Shown one piece after another: positions 2,098-30,470 of a DNA stretch of 64,000 bases; position 1 is the stretch's first letter, and each line of letters opens with the position of its first letter. The stretch lies in assembly GCF_001485575.1 (NCBI RefSeq), contig NZ_BCNB01000006.1:1550001-1614000 (forward strand). The letters run 5' to 3'. This DNA comes from Haloarcula sp. CBA1127 (GTDB lineage: Archaea; Halobacteriota; Halobacteria; Halobacteriales; Haloarculaceae). The position numbers and the translations under genes are program-made. The notes under the pieces are model-generated. The model made no database searches and had not been told where the DNA came from. It was given only the letters and a program-made list of their open reading frames with translations.

Positions 2098-2732
2098 GTG
2101 CTAACAACGGATGGGAGCCACGGACACGCCTCGGCAAGCAGGTTGTCGAGGGCGAAATCGACTCCATGCAGGAGGCGCTGAACTCCGGACTCCCGCTGAA
2201 AGAATCGGAAGTCGTCGACCAGCTCGTTCCCGATCTGGAAGACGAAGTGCTGGACATCAACATGGTCCAGCGGATGACAGACTCCGGCCGCCGCGTGAAG
2301 TTCCGCTGCGTGGTCGCCGTTGGCAACCGCGACGGCCTCATCGGCTACGCCGAAGGGCGTGACGACCAGGTCGGCGGTGCTATCCAGAAAGCCATCGACA
2401 TCGCGAAGCTGAACATCATCGATGTCTCCCGCGGCTGCGGGTCCTGGGAGTGTGGCTGTGGCCGTCCGCACACGGTCGCGCTGCGCACCGAGGGCAAGGC
2501 CGGGAGTGTCGAGGTCGAGCTGCAGCCGGCCCCGCGAGGGCTGGGCCTCGCGGGCGGAGAGACCGTCCGCAAGGTGCTCGAACTCGCCGGTATCGAGGAT
2601 ATCTGGACACGCAGCAGCGGGAACACGCGCACCACGGTCAACTTCGCAAAGGCGACGTTCAACGCCCTGCAGAACACGGCCGAGGCGCGCGTCCCCGAAC
2701 GAACCTTCGAGAAGCGAGAGGTGATCGAGTGA
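2094..2732 (+). CDS. rps5: Ribosomal protein uS5
   Basis: Small-subunit protein uS5, 212 residues, involved in decoding fidelity. The double-stranded-RNA-binding-like S5 domain spans roughly residues 55-120, with [20 protein letters not shown] and the downstream [18 protein letters not shown] cysteine-containing segment [13 protein letters not shown] near residues 115-128 is characteristic of archaeal S5. The C-terminal S5 fold follows, with [15 protein letters not shown] overlap with uL18 and a one-base overlap with uL30 place it firmly in the operon. Confidence 0.97.
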
Positions 2733-3196
2733 TGCACGCGCTCGTCCAGCTCCGTGGCGAAGTCAACATGCACACCGACATCCAGGACACGCTGGAGATG
2801 CTCAACATCCACCACGTGAACCACTGCACGCTCGTCCCTGAGACGGACGCCTACCGCGGCATGGTGGCGAAGGTCAACGACTTCGTCGCCTTCGGCGAGC
2901 CGAGCCAGGAGACGCTGGAGACGGTCCTGGCGACGCGCGCCGAGCCAGTTGAGGGCGACGCCGACGTGGACGACGAGTGGGTCGCCGAGAACACGGATTA
3001 CGACGACATCTCCGGGCTCGCGTTCGCACTCCTCTCCGAGGAGACGACGCTGCGCGAACAGGGCCTCTCCCCGACACTCCGTCTGCACCCGCCCCGGGGC
3101 GGCCACGACGGCGTCAAACACCCCGTCAAGGAGGGCGGGCAGCTCGGGAAACACGACACCGAGGGAATCGACGAACTCCTGGAGGCGATGCGATAA
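2732..3196 (+). CDS. rpl30: Ribosomal protein uL30
   Basis: uL30, 154 residues, the long archaeal form (bacterial homologues are about 60). The ferredoxin-like L30 core is at the N-terminus ([20 protein letters not shown]), with HHVNHCTLVPETDAYRGMV. The C-terminal extension contains LRLHPPRGGHDGVKHPVKEGGQLGKH, a conserved archaeal feature. I chose the ATG at 2732 because the uS5 stop overlaps it (TGATG) and it gives the canonical N-terminus. The stop overlaps the uL15 start. Confidence 0.97.
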   Translation: MHALVQLRGEVNMHTDIQDTLEMLNIHHVNHCTLVPETDAYRGMVAKVNDFVAFGEPSQETLETVLATRAEPVEGDADVDDEWVAENTDYDDISGLAFALLSEETTLREQGLSPTLRLHPPRGGHDGVKHPVKEGGQLGKHDTEGIDELLEAMR

Positions 3197-3693
3197 TGAC
3201 GAGTAAAAAGAAACGACAGCGCGGCTCACGCACGCACGGCGGCGGCTCACACAAGAACCGACGTGGTGCTGGCCACCGCGGTGGTCGCGGTGACGCAGGC
3301 CGTGACAAGCACGAGTTCCACAATCACGAGCCGCTCGGCAAGAGCGGTTTCAAGCGCCCGCAGAAGGTTCAGGAAGAGGCCGCAACCATCGACGTTCGCG
3401 AGATCGACGAGAACGTCACGCTGTTGGCCGCCGATGATGTCGCCGAAGTCGAAGACGGTGGCTTCCGCGTCGATGTCCGTGATGTGGTCGAAGAGGCCGA
3501 CGACGCCGATTACGTGAAGGTACTCGGTGCCGGCCAGGTTCGCCACGAACTCACGCTCGTCGCTGACGACTTCTCCGAGGGCGCTCGCGAGAAGGTTGAA
3601 GCCGCAGGCGGGAGCGTCGAACTGACCGACCTCGGCGAGGAGCGCCAGGCCGAGGCCGAAGAAACCGAAGACGCGGACGCGGACGAGGAATAA
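3196..3693 (+). CDS. rpl15: Ribosomal protein uL15
   Basis: uL15, 165 residues, with the expected basic Gly/Arg/His-rich N-terminus (TSKKKRQRGSRTHGGGSHKNRRGAG) that threads through 23S rRNA, then the globular domain (HNHEPLGKSGFKRPQ) and a very acidic haloarchaeal C-terminus. The ATG at 3196 overlaps the uL30 stop by one base, and in-frame codons upstream of it belong to another gene. It is followed after 6 bases by secY, the classic order at the end of the spc operon. Confidence 0.97.
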   Translation: MTSKKKRQRGSRTHGGGSHKNRRGAGHRGGRGDAGRDKHEFHNHEPLGKSGFKRPQKVQEEAATIDVREIDENVTLLAADDVAEVEDGGFRVDVRDVVEEADDADYVKVLGAGQVRHELTLVADDFSEGAREKVEAAGGSVELTDLGEERQAEAEETEDADADEE

Positions 3694-16164: not shown

Positions 16165-17336
16165 TCAAACCAGTTCCTCCACAGCTTCGACGACGCTCGT
16201 TTTGAATCGGTCTGGCCCGTAGTTCTCGTTCGGGTCGGGCAACGACGAGCGGAGGGATGCCTGAACGTCGGGGTTTTCAAGGATGGCTTCGGCAAGCGTT
16301 ACGGCATCCTCGAGGGAGTCGTAAACCAGTGCGTCTTCGCCACCCAGAATCTCGGCAGGTCCCGCCCCCGACGGAACAAACGGAATCATGCCTGCGCCGA
16401 CCATTTCGACGACGCTCATGCCGAACGGTTCTCGCTCCTTCCCGTGAATACCGTACCGATGGGTCGTCAGAAGTTCGACAAGCGTCGCTCGCTTTACCTC
16501 GCCCTCGAGGCTGACGAAGTCCCGTTCAGCCGCCGCGTCACAGACACTGTCGGCGTACGAGGAATCGCCGACTGTCCCGATGACGTGTAAGTGGGTGTCG
16601 AATCCGCGGTCGCGGAGTTCAGACACGATTTTGATGGTCCGAAGCGTCCGTTTCGATGGGCAGACGCGGCCGATTGTTACGAAACCGTTCTCTCTCGGCG
16701 GTCCCACTGAACGGGATCGAACTCGGAGAGAGTGACGGGTGGGTACACCGTCCGAATATCGACGTCGGGACCGTAGAACTCTCTGGTAAGCGATCGGGTC
16801 CAGTCAGAGTTCGTCAGCAACACGTCGTTACGAACGGAAAGCGGGTCGTGTCCGGCAAGAGTGGTACAGATCTGATTGTAGATGCGCCTGACGCTACTCG
16901 GCTCACTCTGGTTCGGATGCGATACCTGACGACCCGCGGCGAGCAACGCTAACCGTGGCGTGTGAACGTACTGGAGCGTCGGCTGCGGGAGCGAAACGTC
17001 GTCGCGGACGCTCACAAGGAGGTCGTACTCCGGTGCAATGGCACGGACGCGACGGATGAACAGGGACTTCGTCACTAGGTCGAAGTTATTTCCGCTCACG
17101 GTCCCGAGTAGATTTGTGACGCGACCTGGAACGGTCGCGTCGACGTCTATTTCCCGGTAGTTGAGGGTAAACTCGGTCCCGACCAGTTCCGTACTCAGCT
17201 CCCGTGTTCGAGGAGGAGTTGCAGTGATCAGCTCCACGTCGTGTTCGGTACGGAGGGCATCAACGATGGTAAGACAGACTGCTTCCGCACCACCGAAGGC
17301 AGTGAGACGAGGATAGATAACGCCGATAGAAGCCAT
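16165..17336 (-). pseudogene. Glycosyltransferase (GT4-like), frameshifted at a (GA)4 tract
   Basis: Two adjoining minus-strand frames form one GT4 glycosyltransferase of about 389 residues. The 5' part (16677-17336) gives MASIGVIYPRLTAFGGAEAV through PVQWDRRE. The 3' part (16165-16707) resumes as RENGFVTIGRVCPSKRT and carries the donor motif HGKEREPFGMSVVEMVGAG. The switch is at a (TC)4 run on the plus strand, 16689-16696; removing one dinucleotide restores a single open frame of exactly 390 codons. It may be inactive, phase-variable or a sequence error. Downstream genes are closely spaced and look intact. Confidence 0.82.
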
Positions 17337-17499
17337 ACGTGAGCGATTCGTAGGCTAGCGGCTATTGTGAATCTACTGGTCCGACGGACGTAGAGTCGGC
17401 GTAGCATCGGTGAACAGTGACGGACACAGGCCGGCGCTGGAGCGTGACTCGCCCAAACGATTCGGTTAAGTGAGTTTGTGAAAGTTATCAGAGCAAGCA

Positions 17500-18869
17500 A
17501 TGGACGTCATTCTGTCCGTCGTCGATTCGTTGCGGGCGGATCACGTCTCCGCCTACGGATACGATCGCGCCACGACTCCGAACCTTGATAATCTCGCCGA
17601 AGAAGGGCGGCTGTTTACTCAGTGTTTCAGCCCGTCCACGTGGACTCGTCCGGTCGCTTCGTCTCTTTTGACGGGCCGTTATCCGCCGGCACACGGTGTC
17701 GAAACACGTTCTGACAGCATACCGGAGGGGTGTGCTTTCGGAAGCGTTCGCCTCAGCTGGCTTCAAGACGCTCTGCGTCACCTCGATGGGCAACGTCTCG
17801 TCCGCGACAGGCTTCGACCGCGGGTTCGACGACGTAATCGAGGTGTACAAACACCCCGAAGTACTCGAGCGACGGACCACGACGACGGCTGACCGTGAAC
17901 TTCTCGACACCGACCAGGATATATTCGCGTATCCGAGGACCTGAACAGTTATCTCTTCGAATGGTTCGGAGAACACGAGCACGAGGATACGTTCGTCCTC
18001 ATATGGTCGATCGACCCTCACTCCCCTACGACCCACCGGACGGGTTCTCGCAGTTCTCCGGGGAGTTCGACGGCGACGATTCGTTCGGCAGGGATCAGGA
18101 CACCGTGAACCAGGCGACTACGCCCCGTGAGTTTCGACGGCTGGAAAATCTCTACGACGATTGCATCAACTATTGGGACGACATGCTGGGGGAGTTACGC
18201 TCCTACCTGCAATCGAACCGACGGGCCGACGATTCTATCGTCGCGGTCGTCGGTGACCACGGCGAGGCGTTCGGTGAACGCGTACTGTTCCGGAATCCGG
18301 CGCGAGGACACAACACTATCCCGCATGACGAACAGACCCACGTTCCGTTCGTTCTCAAAACCCCGTCAACGGATGGTGGTGTTCACGACGAGATCGTGTC
18401 GCTGATCGACGTTCCATATACGCTTCTTCGAGCAGCAGACGCCGATCCCGAATTCCTCAGCGGACAAGGATCGGTTGTTTGGGAGCCGGGAGTCGTGTCT
18501 GGACACGAGTTCGTGTTCAGTAGAACCCAGAGTCGACGGCGCGGGCCAGCTTTCACCAGCGTCCGTTCTACGGACAGGAAGCTCATTTCTGTCGATCCCC
18601 CAGACTGGTCCTTCGAGAACCTCAAAAACCATCTGCGAGAGATGGTCGGATATAGACTCCTTGTTGACGATGAGATGCTCTATCACGTCGACAAAGACCC
18701 ACGCGAGACGGAGAACAGGATCAATGAGGACACCGAAATTGCCAGCGAATTGCGGGGAGAACTCGACTTATCGTACGAGGAGTGCCGCCAGTTGCGGTCC
18801 GACCAGTCGAACGAGTTCCAGAACGGAGTAGAAACGGAACAGCTAGAGGCGCTTGGATACCAGATGTGA
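17500..18869 (+). pseudogene. Sulfatase-like AP-superfamily gene with three frameshifts
   Basis: The pieces spell one sulfatase-like protein of about 456 residues. The first frame (17500 to about 17728) has MDVILSVVDSLRADHVSAYG and the active-site-like FSPSTWTRPVASSLLTG. The second (to 17930) has SEAFASAGFKTLCVTSMGNV. The third (17935-18025) reads EDLNSYLFEWFGEHEHEDTF. The fourth reads YDPPDGFSQF to the C-terminus, with VVGDHGEAFGER and terminal LEALGYQM. One extra base at the G-run 17727-17730, one missing near 17931-17934 and one missing at the C-run 18023-18026 explain it. The nucleophile position shows Ser/Thr rather than the CxPxR of classical sulfatases, so phosphotransfer is possible. 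Confidence 0.82.
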
Positions 18870-20530: not shown

Positions 20531-22321
20531 TCAGGGCGACCGGATTTGCGTTCGATACATCGAGGCGTACATTCCATCCTGCTCAAGTAACTCGTCGTGG
20601 GGGCCCACTTCCCGGACCCCGCCATCGTCTACAACGTAAATCCGGTCCGCATCCGTGATCGTCGAGAGACGGTGCGCGATGACGACGAGCATGACGTCAT
20701 CGCGACGCTCGATGCGTTCGTGTATTTCCTCTTCGAGGTGCGAGTCCAGATCACTCGTCGCCTCGTCGAGAACCAGAATTTCCGCGTCCTTGAGCACGGC
20801 TCTCGCGATGGAAATTCGCTGTCGCTGGCCACCCGAGAGTCGGACCCCGTCGTCACCGAGCACGGTGTCGAATCCGTTCGGTAGTTCGTCGAGGAACTCC
20901 GTCACCTGCGCCGCTCGACAGGCCGCTTCGACCTCCTCCTTGGTCGCATCCCTGTCAGCGACGGTCACATTTTTCCAGAGCGTATCGTTGAAAATGTACG
21001 GTTGCTGGCGGACAACCGAGAGCCGCTGGCGCCACTCGTCAAGTTTGTAGGTCTCGATTGGTACGTCGTTGGCCGTGATGGTCCCTGTGTCGGGGTCGTA
21101 GAAACGAGCGAGAAGCGAGACGATGGTCGACTTCCCGGCCCCGGAGCCACCGGCGAACGCGACGAATTCGCCTTGCTCGATCGCGAAGGAAATATCGTCC
21201 AGTACGGTTTCATCTTGATATGCAAAGGTGACATCGCGGAAGGAAACGCTTTCGAGCTGATCGGGGCATGGGTCCCCGTCGGAACCCGGTTCCTTCCGGT
21301 CCGCTAGTTCGTCGACGAACGTCTGGGTCCGAATGAGGTGTGGCAGGTGTCCTTCGATCTGGTAGAACTGGTTGTTGATTGTACTAACTCGGGGTGCGAG
21401 TCGGAAGACTGCGAACAAGAGCAGTCCCAGTCCACCGAACGAAAGAGTAGAATACTCGAGGAACGCGTACAGCGAAGCGAAGATTGTGACGGCTATGGTG
21501 AACTGATAGAAGTGATCGATCGCAGACCGGTTCCGATATAGTTGGATCGTCGAATCGGTATACTTCTGAACCGATTCAAGGAAGTCGTCCATTAGTTCGT
21601 CCGAGAGCGCAAAGAGTTTCACGTCGCGGATGCCCTGCGTCCCGGCCTGAACGACCGTCTGTATCTCGTGATTCGCGTCGGCGACCCGATCACCGACGGA
21701 GTAGCCGGACTCGACCATTTTCCGCGCGAAATAGAAGAGGCCACCGAGGAAAACGGCTGCCACGATCAGGAACTTCGGTGCCAAATAGACCACTATCGCC
21801 ACGTAAATCAAACTCATAAACGCTTGTTTGAGGATCTCGACGAGCCACTGGATCATTTGACCAGCATACTCGGCTTGCGTCACTATCGTATTGAGGATGT
21901 CGTCGGAACCCTTTTCATCGAAGTACGCAATCTCGGTATCGAGTGCCCGGTTGAAGGCCGTTGTCTGCAGGTGACGGACGTAATCTGTTCGGAGATAGGC
22001 CTTCAACCAGTCGACGACAAAACTGGACCCGTACCGAACACCCATGACGGTGATAACACCGACGATGATGTACTCGAGTGAGAACGGAATTCCTAGAACG
22101 TCGTAGAGCGTAACGAACGCCTCAACGAATTGGCTCTGGTCGGACGAAGACGTTTGCCCTCGGGTGACCTCAATGATGGGAAGAATGAAACTGAGACCGA
22201 TACCCTCCAGCACGGCGGCTACCAGACTCATCCCAAGAATGGCGAGTGTCGTCAGCGGCCGATGACGAGCGACGTGTTCGAGCGCAGCTAGCTTCTCCCG
22301 CTGCGAGGCTTCGTTGTTCAT
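20531..22321 (-). CDS. ABC exporter, MsbA/PglK-type (candidate lipid-linked glycan flippase)
   Basis: 596 residues from the ATG at 22321 (MNNEASQREKLAALEHVAR); the 15-codon upstream extension is not typical. The N-terminal half carries about six hydrophobic segments. The C-terminal nucleotide-binding domain has Walker A GGSGAGKST near residue 390, signature LSGGQRQRISIARA near 493, Walker B ILVLDEATSDLDSH and switch VIAHRLSTI. A fused TMD-NBD half-transporter inside a glycan island suggests flipping of lipid-linked saccharides. It precedes the capsule-like gene on the same strand and diverges from the nonulosonate operon. Confidence 0.88.
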   Translation of the reverse strand: MNNEASQREKLAALEHVARHRPLTTLAILGMSLVAAVLEGIGLSFILPIIEVTRGQTSSSDQSQFVEAFVTLYDVLGIPFSLEYIIVGVITVMGVRYGSSFVVDWLKAYLRTDYVRHLQTTAFNRALDTEIAYFDEKGSDDILNTIVTQAEYAGQMIQWLVEILKQAFMSLIYVAIVVYLAPKFLIVAAVFLGGLFYFARKMVESGYSVGDRVADANHEIQTVVQAGTQGIRDVKLFALSDELMDDFLESVQKYTDSTIQLYRNRSAIDHFYQFTIAVTIFASLYAFLEYSTLSFGGLGLLLFAVFRLAPRVSTINNQFYQIEGHLPHLIRTQTFVDELADRKEPGSDGDPCPDQLESVSFRDVTFAYQDETVLDDISFAIEQGEFVAFAGGSGAGKSTIVSLLARFYDPDTGTITANDVPIETYKLDEWRQRLSVVRQQPYIFNDTLWKNVTVADRDATKEEVEAACRAAQVTEFLDELPNGFDTVLGDDGVRLSGGQRQRISIARAVLKDAEILVLDEATSDLDSHLEEEIHERIERRDDVMLVVIAHRLSTITDADRIYVVDDGGVREVGPHDELLEQDGMYASMYRTQIRSP

Positions 22322-22646
22322 TTGTTTAGGAAAGCAGAGTTCAATCGGCGGTGGACCCTCTACCAATAAAAACGATCCGATCCGCTAGCCGTCGCCCCCG
22401 GGATATGGCATCTTGCCGTGGGTATAGTCCGCAAGCACGTCGGCAGACACGATCATAGCCAGGTGTGGTACGTGATTCGATCGGAATCGAATGTGTTTGG
22501 CCGCGATTGTCCCATTCTACCAGCGCTGGCGCCGCCTCGTTCGATCACAGATCTACCAACGCTCACCCACGACCGGGGAAGCATGGGGGAGACAGTGGTC
22601 GCCATACGTCGATATATTCTTATCCGATGGTGAGTTGTACTCATTC

Positions 22647-23675
22647 ATGACTGCAGACACTGGTTTGGAACCCCACTGCAAAGTTATCGCGGAGGCGGGT
22701 GTGAACCACAACGGCGATATCGAGATAGCGAAAGACCTTGTGGACGCAGCCGCTTCCGCCGGTGCTGACGCGGTCAAATTTCAGACCTTCCAGCCGAAAG
22801 AAGTCGCGACAGCTCAGACGGAGCAGGCCGACTATCAGAAGGAACGGGATGCCAGCACAAACCAGTACGAAATGCTGGACAACGTAAAACTGCGAGAAGA
22901 AGATCACGACGTCCTGATGGAATATTGCCAGGAAGTTGGGATCGAATTCATGTCTACGCCGTACGACCCGGAGAGCGTAGAAATTCTTGAATCCACCGGC
23001 GTTGATCGGTATAAAGTCGCCTCGGCCGACATCGTGAATAAACCCCTCTTGAGCGCGATCGCAGAAACAGGAAAGCCCGTCATCCTCTCCACGGGGATGG
23101 CAAACCTTGGTGAAATTGAACGCGCAGTCGAGTTCCTCCGGTCTCGAAATTGCGAGGACGTCACTCTCTTGCACTGCGTTTCATCGTATCCAGCTAAGGC
23201 CACCCAGCTCAATATGCGATTTATCGAGACTCTCGCAACGGCGTTCCCCGGGCAGGTCGGGTTTTCGGACCATACGAGGGGGGTCGTGGCTCCAGTCTTG
23301 GCGATGGGATACGGAGCCTCTGTGATTGAAAAGCACTTCACTCTAGACCGGGGGATGGAGGGGCCGGACCACTACGCGTCGTTAGAACCCGATGAACTCT
23401 CGCAGATGGTGGACAACGTGCGATTCGCAGAGAAGGCGATCGGAAGTACTCGTCGGTTGATCTCCACAGTGGAACGGAACAACAAACACTCCATGCGCCG
23501 GAGCTTACACGCCAGTCGCGATATCGAATCTGGTGCGGCTATCTCTCCCGACGACTTGTTGATCGTCCGCCCAGACGAAGGAATAGATCCGTGGAATTAC
23601 GACGATGTCGTCGGTAAGTCTACCACGCAGGAGATCCCCAAGCATGCACCGGTTACGTGGGACCACATCGCATGA
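22647..23675 (+). CDS. NeuB-family nonulosonate synthase (legionaminate/sialate synthase-like)
   Basis: 342 residues from the ATG at 22647. An upstream in-frame extension of 52 codons to 22491 is rejected because it lacks the NeuB start. It condenses a six-carbon N-acyl sugar with phosphoenolpyruvate to give a nine-carbon nonulosonic acid. The TIM barrel shows KVIAEAGVNHNGDIEIAKDL, AVKFQTFQ, MSTPYDPES, VILSTGMANLGEI, GFSDHTRG and IEKHFTLDR. A SAF antifreeze-like domain follows (RRSLHASRDIESGAAISPDD). It starts the nonulosonate module and overlaps the next gene by ATGA. Confidence 0.9.
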   Translation: MTADTGLEPHCKVIAEAGVNHNGDIEIAKDLVDAAASAGADAVKFQTFQPKEVATAQTEQADYQKERDASTNQYEMLDNVKLREEDHDVLMEYCQEVGIEFMSTPYDPESVEILESTGVDRYKVASADIVNKPLLSAIAETGKPVILSTGMANLGEIERAVEFLRSRNCEDVTLLHCVSSYPAKATQLNMRFIETLATAFPGQVGFSDHTRGVVAPVLAMGYGASVIEKHFTLDRGMEGPDHYASLEPDELSQMVDNVRFAEKAIGSTRRLISTVERNNKHSMRRSLHASRDIESGAAISPDDLLIVRPDEGIDPWNYDDVVGKSTTQEIPKHAPVTWDHIA

Positions 23676-24508
23676 TATGTGCATCAACGCAATGTCTTCC
23701 AGACACCGGGATGGAGGAGACACTAATGGCGTACTCTCGGGCCGACATCGAAAACGTCGAACTCGGCTACTGCAGCGAAAAGGATGTAGATGTCTCGGCG
23801 CTAGTTGAGGAGTATTCGTTCAATTTCGTTGCCCACAATTACTTTCTCCCCGTTCAGGACGAGTTCATCCTGAACCTCGCATCGCCGGACGAGTCCCTGC
23901 GACGACAAAGCGTCGACTACGTCAAGGACGCGATCACCTTCTGCGAGAAGCACGATATACCGCGGTACACGTTCCACGGCGGGTTCAGAGTCGACCCGGA
24001 TCTGTCCCTGACATTCCCTAAGCAGTCGCCACCCGACTACGAAACGTGCTTCGAACGGTTTCTTTCGTCACTGCGGTCTGTAATTGACCATGCGACGTCG
24101 ACCGACGTGTCGATCTCGATCGAGAACAACGTCGTCACCACGGAGAACGTGGTCGGAGGAGACCCCCTCCTCATGTTTTGTCGACCTGACGAGTTCAGTC
24201 GTTTATTCGAGGAGGTAGACCCATCTGACTGCGGCGTTTTACTCGACACTGGCCATCTGAACGTGTCCTCACAGACCTTTGATTACCATAAGTCAAGAGT
24301 CGTACAAGAAGTAGCAGACTATCTCGATTGTCTCCATCTGCATACAAATAACGGACGCGTTGACCAACACGACGCGGTCAATCCAACCGACGACGACATA
24401 CCCGTGTCGTCGATGTCAGGGCTGACTCGGGTAGTCGAATCACATCACGGGAACGCAAGAGACTTAAAACAACTGTTGGTACGCTTAGGCGCTAAGAGTG
24501 AACGGTGA
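23672..24508 (+). CDS. TIM-barrel sugar isomerase/epimerase-like (AP-endonuclease-2 fold) protein
   Basis: 278 residues starting at the ATG that overlaps the synthase stop. The xylose-isomerase-like / endonuclease IV-like fold is suggested by VELGYCSEKDVDV, YTFHGGFRVDPDL, SISIENNVV, CGVLLDTGHLNV and CLHLHTNNGRVDQHDA, in which His, Glu and Asp residues would ligate a metal. It is sandwiched between the nonulosonate synthase and a formyltransferase with overlapping starts and stops, so it probably acts on the same sugar. No hydrolysing 2-epimerase gene is visible in the window, and this protein could supply a missing isomerisation, but that is speculation. Confidence 0.7.
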   Translation: MICASTQCLPDTGMEETLMAYSRADIENVELGYCSEKDVDVSALVEEYSFNFVAHNYFLPVQDEFILNLASPDESLRRQSVDYVKDAITFCEKHDIPRYTFHGGFRVDPDLSLTFPKQSPPDYETCFERFLSSLRSVIDHATSTDVSISIENNVVTTENVVGGDPLLMFCRPDEFSRLFEEVDPSDCGVLLDTGHLNVSSQTFDYHKSRVVQEVADYLDCLHLHTNNGRVDQHDAVNPTDDDIPVSSMSGLTRVVESHHGNARDLKQLLVRLGAKSER

Positions 24509-25287
24509 TGATTGACACGAAAATTCTGTTGGCGACGTTCTATCGGTCTGGGATTCTAGCGATCAGGCAGTTGTTGAATAGTGGCTTCGAAAAAGAGCAA
24601 CTTCGCGTCCTGACCTACGATATTGAGCGGAACGAAGAACTACTGGAGTTTCTCGAAAAGAAGGATATATCGTATAAGACCGACGACATTTCCGACCCCG
24701 ATACAGAGTCGTGGATCGAGGCCTTCAACCCAGACCTCATCTTTTCCCTCTACTATCGAGATAAGATTCCGAGCCGTATTCTCGATATTCCACAGTACGG
24801 TGGTGTGAATCTCCACCCATCGTTGCTCCCGCAGTACGCCGGTGTGCTGTCGGTGCCGTGGGCGATGGTCGAAGGTGAATCGCGTACCGGCTACACGTAC
24901 CACTACATGACAGACGAAATTGACACTGGGCCGATACTCAAGCAGGAAGAGGTCTCCATCGGGCCTACCGATACCGCTTATTCGCTCTACCACCGACTCA
25001 TCCACGCCGGAATGAGCAACTTCCTGCCAGTACTCGAATTAATCGTGGAAGAAGAGTACAGCGGCCGACCACAGACGGGGGTCGGCACGTATCACGGGCG
25101 AGGCGACCTTCCAAACGACGGAGTTATTAACCATCAGTGGTCTGACGATGAAATCGATCGATTCATCCGGGCGATGTACTACCCACCGTTTCGACCCGCA
25201 GTAGCCGAATTCGGCGGTCAGGAATTCGAAATAACGTCGATGGCGGAGTACCGTCGTCTCCGACGTCGACACGGTATCAAGCAATGA
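24508..25287 (+). CDS. Sugar N-formyltransferase-like (formyl_trans_N family)
   Basis: 259 residues, starting at the ATG that forms TGATG with the previous stop; a GTG one codon upstream is an alternative. The formyltransferase core has the catalytic Asn-His in GGVNLHPSLLPQYAG (about residues 95-110) and the Asp in MTDEIDTGPILKQEE, as in 10-formyl-THF-dependent sugar and Met-tRNA formyltransferases. It is shorter than methionyl-tRNA formyltransferase and sits between NeuB-like and NeuA-like genes. An amino sugar of the nonulosonate pathway is therefore the likely acceptor, giving an N-formyl nonulosonate. Confidence 0.82.
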   Translation: MIDTKILLATFYRSGILAIRQLLNSGFEKEQLRVLTYDIERNEELLEFLEKKDISYKTDDISDPDTESWIEAFNPDLIFSLYYRDKIPSRILDIPQYGGVNLHPSLLPQYAGVLSVPWAMVEGESRTGYTYHYMTDEIDTGPILKQEEVSIGPTDTAYSLYHRLIHAGMSNFLPVLELIVEEEYSGRPQTGVGTYHGRGDLPNDGVINHQWSDDEIDRFIRAMYYPPFRPAVAEFGGQEFEITSMAEYRRLRRRHGIKQ

Positions 25288-25988
25288 CGTGTGACGTATT
25301 CGCCGTAATTCCGGCGCGTGGGGGGTCAAAGCGGATACCGAAAAAGAACATCAAGGAAGTGGCTGGAAAACCCCTCATCGCCCACACGGTGGAGCAGGCG
25401 AACGAAGCGACAACGATAGACAGAGTGATTGTCTCGACTGACGACGAGGAGATAGCCTCAGTAGCACGCGAGTACGGCGGGGAAATCCCTTTTATAAGGC
25501 CGGCCAGACTAGCAACGGATGAGACACCGGGGCCACCGGTCATCCAACACGCGCTCGACTGGATCGAAAAACAACAGGAACCGCCGACCGTGGTTGTAAA
25601 GTTGCAAGCTACTTCTCCACTCCGTCGAGTAGATGACATCGACCAGGCAGTACGGAAGCTGCAAAACGACGAGGCTGCGAAGTCGGTCATCTCCGTGACT
25701 GAGTTTGAGCAACCACCATTCTGGGCAGTGGAACCTGACGATGACGGGTACCTGCATACGTACTTCGATAGGGACGTCCTTTGGACTGACGACATTCCAC
25801 GTAGCCAGGACCTTCCAGCTTTGCGCTGCCCGAACGGGGCCATCTTTGCCGCGCGGAGGAACGCTTTTATTGAACACGAATCATTCTATACCGATGCCAC
25901 GGTCCCATTCGAAATGCCAAGAGACCGATCAATTGATATTGACGAACCGATAGACCTAGAGATAGTCAGGACTCTTGCAGAGAAATGA
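25284..25988 (+). CDS. CMP-nonulosonate cytidylyltransferase (NeuA/LegF-like)
   Basis: 234 residues. It activates a nonulosonic acid to its CMP derivative, using CTP. The N-terminal nucleotide-binding loop IPARGGSKRIPKKNI (residues about 8-22) is diagnostic; VIVSTDDEEIASVA, LQATSPLR and a C-terminal DIDEPIDLEI follow as in other family members. The ATG overlaps the formyltransferase stop by four bases. With the synthase and formyltransferase it forms a coupled four-gene operon. Confidence 0.9.
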   Translation: MTCDVFAVIPARGGSKRIPKKNIKEVAGKPLIAHTVEQANEATTIDRVIVSTDDEEIASVAREYGGEIPFIRPARLATDETPGPPVIQHALDWIEKQQEPPTVVVKLQATSPLRRVDDIDQAVRKLQNDEAAKSVISVTEFEQPPFWAVEPDDDGYLHTYFDRDVLWTDDIPRSQDLPALRCPNGAIFAARRNAFIEHESFYTDATVPFEMPRDRSIDIDEPIDLEIVRTLAEK

Positions 25989-26043
25989 AATGCAACGCGT
26001 ATAGTTTAAGAATGTACGATCACTGGCACGCTACTACTTATAC

Positions 26044-27126
26044 ATGATTCCGCTTGCAGAACCGACATTTGGGGACGCGGAGCGTTCCCGAGTGGTTGAC
26101 GCACTCGAACGCGGGTGGATTTCCCCGAAGGGCGAGTACGTCACGGAGTTCGAAGATGTATTCGGGGATTGGGTCGGGACCGAACACGCTTTCGCTACCT
26201 CGACCGGAACCGCTGCACTCCACCTTTCACTCCTGGCTGCCGGGATCGGCGAGGGAGACGAGGTAATCGTCCCGGACCTGACGTGGATCGCCTGTGCGAA
26301 CGTGGTGTCCTACGTCGGTGCAACGCCGGTGTTCGCGGATGTCGACCCGGACACATACACACTTGACCCCGCTAGCGTCCGTGAGCGTCTCACCGAAGAC
26401 ACCAAGGCGGTGATGCCGGTCCATCTCTACGGACAGCCCTGCGAGATGACGCCGATTCAACGGCTCGCAGACGAGCATGACCTCTTGGTCCTCGAGGACG
26501 CTGCCGAGGCACACGGCGCGACGTATCGTGGTCGACGTGTGGGGAGCGTCGGCGACGTCGGCTGTTTCAGCTTTTACGGGAATAAGATCCTCACCACCGG
26601 TCAGGGTGGGATGATAACGACGGACGACGACGAACTTGCAGAGCGAATACGCCTGCTCCGGCGGGACGGTATGTCGAGAGACAAGAAATACTACCACTTG
26701 GAGATCGGGTACAACTATCGACTGACGAACATACAGGCCGCGATCGGCGTTGGGCAGGTTGAGCGTGCCGACGCGATCCTTGAGAACAAACGCCGCGTTG
26801 CCGAGACATATCGCCGCGAGTTGACGACGCAGGACGTTCGCTTCCAGGCGACACCCGACTGGGGAGAGTCAGCCCACTGGATGGTCTCCCCGGTGTTTCG
26901 AACGACCGGACAGTTCGAGCGGGTGCGGAACGCACTCGCTGCTGCCGACGTAGAGACGCGGCCATTTTTCTACCCACTTCACGAGCAACCGCCCTACGCC
27001 GGGAGTGGAAGCGATTGCCCCGTGACGGAACGACTCCACGAGCGTGGGATGAATCTGCCGTCCGCTCCGAATCTTAATGATCAGATTATAATCGAGATAT
27101 GTGACGTTATCCGCGATGCCCTCTGA
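26044..27126 (+). CDS. PLP-dependent sugar aminotransferase (DegT/DnrJ/EryC1/StrS; LegC/PseC-like)
   Basis: 360 residues. It transaminates a 4-keto nucleotide sugar to the 4-amino sugar. The family start IPLAEPTFGDAERSRVVDAL, the cofactor region EHAFATSTGTAALHLSLLAAG, VLEDAAEAHGA, and the PLP-binding lysine in CFSFYGNKILTTGQGGMI are present. YNYRLTNIQAAIGVGQ and a C-terminal RGMNLPSAPNL complete it. It follows the cytidylyltransferase by 55 bases with its own probable TATA-like AT stretch before the ATG, and precedes the 4,6-dehydratase-like gene. Confidence 0.9.
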   Translation: MIPLAEPTFGDAERSRVVDALERGWISPKGEYVTEFEDVFGDWVGTEHAFATSTGTAALHLSLLAAGIGEGDEVIVPDLTWIACANVVSYVGATPVFADVDPDTYTLDPASVRERLTEDTKAVMPVHLYGQPCEMTPIQRLADEHDLLVLEDAAEAHGATYRGRRVGSVGDVGCFSFYGNKILTTGQGGMITTDDDELAERIRLLRRDGMSRDKKYYHLEIGYNYRLTNIQAAIGVGQVERADAILENKRRVAETYRRELTTQDVRFQATPDWGESAHWMVSPVFRTTGQFERVRNALAAADVETRPFFYPLHEQPPYAGSGSDCPVTERLHERGMNLPSAPNLNDQIIIEICDVIRDAL

Positions 27127-27176
27127 TCTCGGCATCGAGGCGAGAAGGTTATAATCCCCGAAAAAAACTACCCTGT

Positions 27177-28208
27177 ATGGTTACCGAACTCCAGAACGAG
27201 CGGGTGCTGGTTACTGGGGGCGCCGGCTTCATTGGTTCCGCTCTCGTCAAGCGACTGCTCGAGAACGACAACCACGTCACCGTCTTGGACAACTTCGTGA
27301 CGGGCGCTCTAGATAACTTACAAAATATCGTCAACCGAATCGAAGGAGAACGAGCCGACTTGGCGGACCACATCGACCTCGTCAGTGGCGACATCCTGCG
27401 GTCGGATCTGGCCGATTTGCTGGAGTCGAACGAGATCGACTACGTGTTCCACCTCGCTGCAGAACCATACATCCCGAGTTGCTATGACCGACCCACAGAC
27501 TTCTTTTCGGTCAACGCGAACGGGACGCTCAAACTGCTGCTCGCGTGCCGGGACGCTGGCGTTGAGCGCATCCTTACCTACTCGTCGTCGGAAGTGTACG
27601 GGACTGCACAGGAAGTCCCGATGAGCGAGTCCCACCGTACGTATCCGCAGTCAACCTATGCAGTCAGTAAACTCGCGGCCGACCGCCTCTGCTTTACGCT
27701 CTTCCATGAACAGGACGTCCCGGTCGTCATCCTCCGTCAGTTTAATTGCTACGGACCGCGCGAAACTCATCCCTACATAGTTCCCGAATTGATCGCACAG
27801 CTATCGACGGATAATCAGCTGTCGCTGGGGAACATCGAGGCGAGTCGTGACCTCACGTACGTCGAAGACGCAGTCCGCGGCGCCTCGAAGCTCATCAACT
27901 GTCCCGACGCGGAAGGAGAAGTCGTGAATCTCGGCTTCGGTGAGGACTACACTGTCGAGGAGCTTGCGCACATAATCGCAGAAGAAATGGGGCACGCCGA
28001 AGTGAGCATCGAGGTCGAACAGTCGCGGTTCCGACCGCTGGATGTCCAGCAGCTTCACTGTGATTATTCTAAGGCATCGAACCTGATCGATTACGAACCA
28101 CAGGTTGACATTCGTGAGGGGATACGGCGAACCATCGATTGGTACCGGGAAAACGGTGAATGGGTGTGGGAGCGGTCCCTGAAAGATCAGCTCTGGCCCG
28201 AAAACTAA
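27177..28208 (+). CDS. NAD-dependent nucleotide-sugar dehydratase/epimerase (SDR; LegB-like)
   Basis: 343 residues, extended short-chain dehydrogenase. The N-terminal Rossmann motif VTGGAGFIGSALVKRLLE, FHLAAEPYIPSC, YSSSEVYGTAQEVPMSES and the catalytic YAVSK are visible; the C-terminal substrate domain has PRETHPYIVPELIAQL. Together with the aminotransferase it would produce the 4-keto then 4-amino sugar precursor, as LegB and LegC do in legionaminate synthesis. Pure epimerase activity is an alternative. It is the last intact gene of the island; only decayed sequence follows. Confidence 0.87.
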   Translation: MVTELQNERVLVTGGAGFIGSALVKRLLENDNHVTVLDNFVTGALDNLQNIVNRIEGERADLADHIDLVSGDILRSDLADLLESNEIDYVFHLAAEPYIPSCYDRPTDFFSVNANGTLKLLLACRDAGVERILTYSSSEVYGTAQEVPMSESHRTYPQSTYAVSKLAADRLCFTLFHEQDVPVVILRQFNCYGPRETHPYIVPELIAQLSTDNQLSLGNIEASRDLTYVEDAVRGASKLINCPDAEGEVVNLGFGEDYTVEELAHIIAEEMGHAEVSIEVEQSRFRPLDVQQLHCDYSKASNLIDYEPQVDIREGIRRTIDWYRENGEWVWERSLKDQLWPEN

Positions 28209-28777
28209 CCCGTTTGACTCGTTCCGATTGTTGAGTCGGTATTCGGTGAAAGTATACCAGCACCAACTGAGACCTGTTCTGTGGTGACGACTGTGTGCTA
28301 TATCGGGACGAGAGACGAGCAACAAACGGTGGGGACGCGTGCCCAAACCGGCCGGCTGTGCGCACTTCCGGCGGACGCGGACCACTGTGCGTTTTCAGGA
28401 AGTGTAGATGTAAACCACTCGCCACAGCAGGATCATAACCACGAGTTTGTAGTTGACCCCCGTTTTACCGTCTCACTGACTAAGTCTCGGATCCTGATTT
28501 GTCGGGTTCCAGAGGGTTGAGGTCTATCTCGAACAGTTGCTCGTGGATAGTCGCCGACAATCTTGGAATGTTGCGAGAACACGCCTCACGCAGATTGTCG
28601 GAACTGAGTGACAGGGGTACGTGAGTAAACTCGAGGATGGCCAGTACGGACTCAGTGAGACCGGGCAATCGTTCCTGACCGACCACTCATATTCCCAGTG
28701 AGCAACGACGCGACAGTCTCACAGACAGCTCCACACCTGCTAAGTGCAAACCGACACGGTCTGTATAAACTTTCTCA
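28209..28777. other. Degenerate, gene-poor region at the right edge of the island
   Basis: About 570 bases with no intact gene. A minus-strand 68-codon frame (28480-28686) reads LTESVLAILEFTHVPLSLSS and HEQLFEIDLNPLEPDKSGSE. It looks protein-like and may be the start of a lost gene, possibly mobile-element derived, but I cannot name it. Confidence 0.35.
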
Positions 28778-29890
28778 GTGCTCACCGACACCGTTCTGCC
28801 ACGCCAACGCAGTCACCTGCTCACGGCCGACTGGCGGCCAGTGACAGCCATCCACGACAACCGCAGAGTCCACACACGCCGCGGGCCCACCGATGTAGTC
28901 GTCGAGAGTCCATTGCCATACACCGAGCGGTTACCCCCACCTTTGCCTACGACACCGACTGACATGCGCTCACCTGCACCAAGTGTGACGCACTCTACGA
29001 TTCGGCGCGGGCGGACATGTTGGATGTGGTTGAGTGTCACGACACGCTGGCAGCGATCGACCGCGCTAACATTCCGGTCTGTGACGTGGATGTCGCACGG
29101 TCCACGGCTGAGCGTGAGCAGACCGAGTATTCCCACCAGCAATTGCTGTCCCTGCAGGCCGTATACGACGCGTGGTCAATGAAGTATGAGTCCACGATGT
29201 ACGATATTGTGTATGACTCGGTGATCCGGCTCCGGGAGTATTTCGGTATTAGCGATACAGGCGTCAACGAGTTGCTTGACCGCGGCTTGACCAAACGTGA
29301 CGGATAAAGCCCACTTGCTCTATACTGTCACCAGTGTCGGTCAGTCGCTGTTGAATGAGTCGTACTGCGTCGGCGTCGATTACGGACACGGCGTGGGTAA
29401 CCTAGAAGAGACCAGCGAGCACCACATGCGGGTCGAGACGTTGGCCCGGTATTTAGAACACGCTTACGTTGACGACGCCGAGTCACCGGTCGTCGAGGTG
29501 TCCCGCTACTACGAACCCGGCCAAGGGAATCACCACATCCCCCGGCCGAGACGACCATGGGCGGAACGGACGATCCGGAGCAGGCTGTAACCGGACCGAC
29601 CAGCGTCGATCCAATGACATCGGATCGACGCCGAGGGTGAGATCGTCATCGTCGTGGAAGCCGAGCATCTGAACAGCGATGTCGCCGAGGCAGTCGTCGC
29701 AGATTTCGATAAGATGGCTGCCTGTGACCCCGCGGAGGCAATCTGGGTTGTCCCGTCACATTCTGCTGCGACTCGTGTTGTCGAGGCACTGACCGATCCT
29801 CCTGAAGGCACCCTTCGGGTCAAGAGGACGTAATCCCAGAACACCCCAAGCATTGACGGACCGGGCTCTCACAGACAATGATATTCAGCA
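28778..29890 (+). pseudogene. Multiply broken gene of a plasmid-associated haloarchaeal protein family
   Basis: Fragments in changing frames make one decayed protein. From 28778: RSHLLTADWRPVTAIHDNRR. After a shift near 28935: TFAYDTD, an in-frame TGA, then HALTCTKCDALYDSARADML with a CxxC zinc pair, continuing through DAWSMKYESTMYDIVYDSVI. A shift near 29300 gives DKAHLLYTVTSVGQSLLNES and EHAYVDDAESPVVEV. After a scrambled patch (29520-29630) comes EGEIVIVVEAEHLNSDVAEA and AACDPAEAIWVVPSHSAATR, then a stop where the homologue I remember continues. I recognise this pattern from hypothetical proteins on haloarchaeal plasmids and integrated elements. Function unknown. Confidence 0.65.
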
Positions 29891-30470
29891 CACTTCGGGA
29901 TCGACTGCTCGAGCGGTCACACTCCGAATCACCGTCATCATAACCGTAAAGCTGCAATTCTCGGCCATTTATTTATTTCACACTCCACGGCTCCTCTGGA
30001 ACAAAGAGAGTGATCTCGAAAGTGTGAGTGAAGTGCTCCGGCTTCGCTAATTGAGAGACATTCCATCGCAAGAGTGGGTAGTCGGACGTGCCAGTCGCAC
30101 GAATGGGCCAAGCGCGCACATAGCTGTGCTTGCTAGTTAGGGGACAATCAGCAGTATTATCAATAAATTGCACTCCAGAGTTACCAGACTATCATTTGAT
30201 GAAGTATCCATATATCCAAGTACACGTGTATTAGCGGTCGTTTTTCGAAGTGAGAAAAGCGAATAGATAGATGAAATCGTTCATACTATCACGGATTCGG
30301 TGAGAGAAGAACTGTGAACGGTGGAAAGCGCACATTGATCGTTATTTCTGGCTGCACCCGCGACAAAACTCAGCATAGACTCATTCAAGATTGTTTGAAA
30401 CTGCGAGCTTCCCACCACGAAGAGAGTATTGGCAAGTCACAGGAGTTTCTAAAGAGAATATTCTGGAACG
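29891..30470. other. Intergenic region, no gene seen
   Basis: About 580 bases, AT-richer than average. Short open frames on both strands lack acidic composition and motifs. It probably contains remnants of the decayed element on its left and the terminator of the leftward operon on its right. Confidence 0.4.

Follow-up and report, generated by a model that had tools for sequence, protein, structure and literature searches.

Haloarcula sp. CBA1127 carries, in a 64-kb stretch of contig NZ_BCNB01000006.1 (the whole analyzed stretch, referred to here as the window), a module of six plus-strand open reading frames (ORFs) at positions 22647 to 28208 that almost certainly encodes a pathway for a nonulosonate, a sugar of the sialic or legionaminic type. 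The unusual feature of this module, which a preliminary description of the DNA left unremarked when it listed a TIM barrel without comment, is that the step releasing the sugar from its nucleoside diphosphate (NDP) carrier (LegG/NeuC or PseG) is missing. We lean towards reading the module as a third pathway class for nonulosonates, with a metal-binding TIM barrel replacing LegG at the release step. That the barrel is an undescribed NDP-sugar-releasing enzyme of the endonuclease IV (Endo IV)/epimerase fold standing in for LegG, NeuC, and PseG alike, in a pathway class found in both archaea and bacteria, is put forward more tentatively, at somewhat less than an even chance.

Nonulosonate assignment of the module

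All six ORFs were found in the order previously given, with family matches far above chance (Table 1), and their assignment to nonulosonate synthesis held: the NeuB-family synthase, the only NeuB of the genome, scored above the TIGR03569 cut-off and the CMP-sugar synthetase above the CTP_transf_3 cut-off. The dehydratase and aminotransferase were best matched by the LegB and LegC models, as had been suggested, though both scored below the curated cut-offs; the dehydratase orthologue at L035, one of three further haloarchaeal loci with the barrel (L033 to L035), reached 581 bits (TIGR04180 LegB cut-off, 475). In keeping with the coupling described for four genes, the first four are joined by three 4-base stop/start overlaps (ATGA, GTGA, and ATGA at the NeuB/TIM barrel, TIM barrel/formyltransferase, and formyltransferase/CMP-synthetase junctions, respectively); the adjacent LegC and LegB genes followed without overlap after spacers of 55 and 50 bp. 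A congeneric genome (G083, locus L033) carried orthologues of all six genes in unchanged order, 95 to 96% identical at the protein level, with dN/dS values of 0.04 to 0.15 across all six, and the ORFs are thus genes under purifying selection.

Pseudaminic acid synthesis was rejected: PseG, which performs the release step of that pathway, was not found in the genome, and the NeuB protein scored 318.9 bits against the PseI model, below the cut-off of 340.25. The pseudaminic pathway is alike in its six-step logic and its related synthase and CMP-synthetase families; the module differs in lacking PseG, in having a NeuB above the NeuB_NnaB cut-off, and in the separation of this NeuB from the clade of PseG-type haloarchaeal NeuBs. 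Also rejected was an N-formylperosamine pathway; a WbkC-like formyltransferase is present, yet the dehydratase was nearer to LegB (243 bits) than to GDP-mannose dehydratase (Gmd; 88 bits). These dehydratase scores count as well against the absence of any nonulosonate pathway, with the formyltransferase serving N-formylperosamine or a viosamine-like hexose and the NeuB and CMP-synthetase genes acting separately. Such an arrangement would fit a formyltransferase whose nearest solved relative acts on GDP-perosamine, but pathway genes overlap the formyltransferase gene at either end, and L034 and L035 swap in an acetyltransferase with the rest of the set kept; we regard it as scarcely credible.

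Absence of the release step and distribution of the TIM barrel

The published legionaminic pathway requires LegG between acylation and condensation (PMC6137143). No NeuC/LegG above the cut-off was found at the locus or elsewhere in the genome. The sole Epimerase_2 protein of the genome was WecB-like and encoded on another contig, beside a gene resembling that of UDP-ManNAc dehydrogenase, the usual partner of WecB. Among 391 haloarchaeal genomes, NeuB was present in 77 and NeuC above the cut-off in 28; a close relative of the TIM barrel was present in 4 (the fourth scoring 175 bits and the next match 34), none of which had NeuC above the cut-off or PseG. A WecB-like Epimerase_2 was present in three of these four genomes; the other, that of Halorubrum sp. 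SD626R (G331; 94% complete), had no Epimerase_2 of any kind.

Besides L033 to L035, 72 NeuB neighborhoods (approximately 9 kb on each side) were surveyed. NeuC was present in 28 and PseG in 26 (54 with either, none with both), neither in 18, and the TIM barrel in none; at L033 to L035 and at an Azospirillum locus (described below), the barrel was present and NeuC and PseG were absent. Among the 38 haloarchaeal loci with NeuB, LegB, and LegC, 30 had NeuC or PseG, 3 had the barrel alone, and 5 had none of these (3 of the 5 ending at or near a contig end). Lack of NeuC and PseG was associated with the barrel in these 38 loci (Fisher P = 0.0066, shared ancestry uncorrected). The only genes common to the three divergent archaeal barrel loci were those for NeuB, the barrel, CMP-synthetase, LegC, and LegB.

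Release in trans, by a WecB-like epimerase and an unspecific hydrolase with the barrel acting elsewhere (for example, epimerizing the nonulosonate or a precursor), would accommodate the WecB-like proteins of three barrel genomes and a fold characteristic of sugar epimerases (D-tagatose 3-epimerase, for example). We judge this distinctly unlikely, given the SD626R genome without any Epimerase_2, the position of the window genome's own WecB-like gene next to its usual partner, and the fact that the barrel never occurred with NeuC or PseG at a locus, which is expected of a substitute and not required of a tailoring enzyme.

Two further groups of loci stood out in the survey. L157, L158, L160, and L162 to L166 carry NeuB and CMP-synthetase without NeuC, PseG, or the TIM barrel; their NeuBs form two deep clades and may belong to another nonulosonate route. 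At L130, L139, L140, and L151, NeuB lies in open frames of approximately 630 to 680 amino acids, possible second-domain fusions, which form a deep clade of their own with neither NeuC nor PseG nearby.

A bacterial cluster and coinheritance of the barrel with NeuB and LegC

A plasmid scan with the TIM barrel retrieved a cluster of Azospirillum sp. TSA2s in which the barrel gene is flanked on one side by that of a CMP-nonulosonate synthetase and on the other by that of a LegC-type aminotransferase. Nearby lie neuB and the genes for HisF/HisH and N-acetyl sugar amidotransferase; the NeuB synthase scored above the NeuB_NnaB cut-off. No Epimerase_2 was found on this plasmid, the one Azospirillum replicon covered by the search. 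Repeating the scan with the Azospirillum protein yielded no further plasmid, scans of viral contigs and phages gave no match to the barrel, and a profile scan of genome contigs returned one real locus, that of Halorubrum SD626R, together with distant barrels without nonulosonate genes. The LegC-family aminotransferase beside the Azospirillum barrel (L180, 10711 to 12198) has an N-terminal extension of approximately 115 amino acids.

In the LegC tree, the four TIM-type LegCs, the bacterial one included, formed one clade (100/99; in 100% of bootstrap trees) that adjoined the NeuC-type LegCs with moderate support (86/77). The haloarchaeal TIM-type NeuBs likewise formed their own clade (100/97), apart from the NeuC-type and PseG-type NeuBs. 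In all four haloarchaeal genomes and on the Azospirillum plasmid, the barrel accompanies neuB, legC, and the CMP-synthetase gene. The barrel is coinherited with NeuB and LegC, and for both proteins the haloarchaeal NeuC-type sequences lay in clades separate from the TIM-type ones.

Fold and metal site of the TIM barrel

The barrel protein matched PF01261 (AP_endonuc_2) at 87.6 bits (gathering cut-off, 31.1; E = 1.4e-24). With its AlphaFold2 model (mean pLDDT, 80.9), the best Foldseek match was Endo IV (1qtw; E = 7e-11), and MJ1311 (3wqo; TM score, 0.71) and D-tagatose 3-epimerases matched as well. A profile alignment with Endo IV of Escherichia coli (hhalign E = 3e-8) retained equivalents of eight of the nine metal ligands (H109, E145, D179, H182, H216, D229, H231, and E261), with H69 missing; in the Azospirillum barrel, the H231 equivalent was changed as well. 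Fold and most metal ligands are thus the same as in the Endo IV, D-tagatose 3-epimerase, and MJ1311 barrels, but the protein belongs to its own subfamily, with the motifs HNYFxP..LNLAS, ENNV, LLDxGHLxV, and NNGxxDQH and linkage to nonulosonate genes. SpsG of Bacillus subtilis, discussed below, is of a family different from that of the barrel. An Endo IV of DNA repair was rejected on the basis of the TIGR00587 score (30.6 bits; cut-off, 129.65), the nonconserved H69, and the operon context. The metal site would suit a metal-dependent phosphoester or pyrophosphate hydrolase; the E-D-H-E part of such an Endo IV-type site is also an epimerase site. We found no report in the open-access literature of this barrel in nonulosonate synthesis, which is weak evidence of novelty.

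Proposed pathway

An obvious enzyme can be assigned to every one of the six legionaminic steps except release, and this step is the only role left for the barrel, which we propose as the release enzyme. LegB would dehydrate and LegC would aminate an NDP-N-acetylhexosamine, with GDP as the suspected nucleotide, and the WbkC-like enzyme would formylate the 4-amine, substituting for the acetyltransferase LegH. The barrel, as a metalloenzyme, would then free the sugar from its nucleotide, with or without LegG-type inversion at C2, and the NeuB-family enzyme would condense the free hexose with phosphoenolpyruvate to a 5-acetamido-7-formamido sugar. Activation by the CMP-synthetase would yield a CMP-activated formylated legionaminic-type sugar for surface glycans.

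In a variant that overlaps with and refines this pathway, the barrel acts as a hydrolase only, without C2 inversion, and the route either gives another stereoisomer or starts from WecB-made NDP-ManNAc. In its favor, metal ligands of the Endo IV type are suggestive of phosphoester chemistry, WecB-like proteins occur in three of the four barrel genomes, and legionaminic acid synthesis in B. subtilis requires the pathway enzyme SpsG (PMC7439481). The sps pathway likewise uses six enzymes and departs from the Campylobacter pathway (PMC7439481). However, SD626R has no Epimerase_2, and the position of the TIM-type LegCs nearest the NeuC-type LegCs suggests the usual gluco-configured intermediate; we consider the variant unlikely.

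Several points weigh against release by the barrel. Absence of NeuC and PseG alone is no proof, since it is shared by 18 other NeuB loci of haloarchaea. The barrel loci are few: a single plasmid represents the bacteria, and the archaeal loci come from three independent lineages. The search of Azospirillum for Epimerase_2 covered that plasmid alone, and the NeuB tree does not firmly place the Azospirillum NeuB with the archaeal TIM-type proteins. The fold spans phosphoesterases and sugar epimerases, and hydrolysis and epimerization are indistinguishable by sequence; the activity of members of the subfamily is predicted only, and we know of no precedent for C2 inversion by such a fold on such a substrate. 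Finally, two genomes of the same phylum (G459 and G488) carry a related barrel beside genes for GalU, UDP-glucose dehydrogenase, and a short-chain dehydrogenase/reductase (SDR), without nonulosonate genes, and the wider barrel family is therefore not nonulosonate specific. These two barrels (L202, 9017 to 9973; L203, 9187 to 10110) lack the ENNV motif and lie in a separate sugar pathway.

Formyltransferase and predicted formyl position

The Asn-His-Asp residues noted earlier in the formyltransferase were located at N102, H104, and D140 (NLHP...DTG) and aligned with the corresponding motif of WbkC; its gene is part of the cassette. The nearest solved relative by far was the GDP-4-amino-4,6-dideoxymannose (GDP-perosamine) formyltransferase 5vys (E = 1e-53), followed by the ArnA family (1e-25). 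Motif and length are the same in this WbkC-type enzyme, but the window enzyme sits in a nonulosonate operon and its substrate is a prediction. In nonulosonate synthesis, the 4-amine of the hexose becomes N7 and the 2-acetamido group becomes N5. Since the nearest solved relative formylates the 4-amine, and since a NeuD/PglD-type acetyltransferase stands in place of the formyltransferase at the two more distant archaeal loci (L034, where it scored above the TIGR03570 cut-off, and L035), a 7-N-formyl product is predicted and is a better guess than a 5-N-formyl one.

The preliminary description had read the module as fitting a legionaminic pathway to 5-N-formyl-legionaminic acid, as found on VP4 of the virus HRPV-1 and on the S-layer of Halorubrum sp. 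PV6 (PMC6137143), and we now find this highly improbable. No other formylated nonulosonate has been reported from a haloarchaeal glycoprotein, and the PV6 cluster, with the pathway LegB-LegC-LegH-LegG-LegI-LegF, includes a putative formyltransferase gene, HrrPV6_1050, already proposed to encode a modifier (PMC6137143). The module and PV6 share NeuB, CMP-synthetase, LegB, and LegC, a clustered formyltransferase gene, and the setting of haloarchaeal surface glycosylation; the suggested link to the PV6 sugar was not supported, however, as the published PV6 set has LegG (NeuC) and a NeuD homologue, has its formyl group reported at N5, and lists no TIM barrel (PMC6137143), and neither NeuC nor NeuD was found among the six ORFs of the window or in the orthologous cluster L033. 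Formylation at N5, which derives from the 2-acetamido group, needs prior deacetylation, and no deacetylase is among the six genes. The window enzyme was also only distantly similar to its counterparts at other NeuB loci of haloarchaea (50 to 88 bits; its orthologue, 571 bits). Of the 72 other haloarchaeal NeuB loci, 23 had a formyltransferase homologue within approximately 9 to 10 kb. Such genes are common near neuB in haloarchaea, and the formyl story is plausible and not new in kind.

Genomic setting

Coordinates are collected in Table 1; for the formyltransferase, the ATG at 24508 could also serve as the start. The cluster lies in a surface-glycan island, which between approximately 6 and 22.4 kb of the window encodes glycosyltransferases, a methyltransferase, an O-antigen-ligase-like protein, a polysaccharide deacetylase, sulfatase-family proteins, and the MsbA/PglK-type exporter, and upstream of it lies a ribosomal-protein/secY-like gene block (read from translations).

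Table 1. Genes of the nonulosonate module and a neighboring exporter gene (window coordinates)
Feature	Position	Strand	Evidence
NeuB/LegI-type nonulosonate synthase with SAF domain	22647..23675	+	TIGR03569 NeuB_NnaB, 408.5 bits (cut-off, 399.65); NeuB PF03102, 4e-97; PF08666
TIM barrel (AP_endonuc_2; Endo IV/D-tagatose 3-epimerase superfamily), putative LegG replacement	23672..24508	+	PF01261, 1e-24; structure model; Foldseek; ligand alignment; ATGA overlap with neuB
WbkC-like sugar N-formyltransferase (N102, H104, D140)	24505..25287	+	PF00551 (Formyl_trans_N), 4e-26; 5vys, 1e-53
CMP-nonulosonate synthetase (PseF/LegF-like)	25284..25988	+	PF02348 (CTP_transf_3), 1e-27; TIGR03584, 181 bits (below cut-off, 205.7); ATGA overlap
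LegC-like DegT-family pyridoxal phosphate aminotransferase	26044..27126	+	DegT_DnrJ_EryC1, 1e-121; TIGR04181, 358 bits (below cut-off, 420); LegC tree
LegB-like SDR NDP-sugar 4,6-dehydratase	27177..28208	+	Epimerase/GDP_Man_Dehyd, ~1e-64; TIGR04180 LegB best, 243 bits (below cut-off, 475)
ABC exporter, MsbA/PglK type, possible glycolipid flippase; neighbor outside the pathway	20531..22366	-	ABC_tran/ABC_membrane; conserved in L033

Within the island, a GT4-type glycosyltransferase on the minus strand (16165 to 17336) is split into two overlapping ORFs (16165 to 16707 and 16677 to 17336); its L033 orthologue is a single intact ORF of 389 amino acids (2479 to 3648), and the window copy reflects a frameshift or an assembly error. 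A plus-strand sulfatase-family ORF (17488 to 18869) of 324 amino acids has an odd N terminus and corresponds to 460 amino acids in L033 (3814 to 5196), probably a second frameshift. Approximately 2.2 kb 3' of the cluster (28209 to 30470) contains no convincing gene and is a possible decayed insertion; in L033, only approximately 0.2 kb separates the dehydratase gene from the next ORF.

Implications

Gene content is the basis on which nonulosonate clusters are interpreted, NeuC/LegG and PseG serving as the markers of product, and a class lacking both would be mistaken for an incomplete one. If the proposed role is true, the TIM barrel is a nonhomologous solution to the reaction by which an NDP-sugar is committed to becoming a NeuB substrate, and the LegC clade paired with it offers a marker with which to find the TIM-type class elsewhere. 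For the surface glycans of haloarchaea, the locus predicts a 7-N-formyl rather than a 5-N-formyl sugar.

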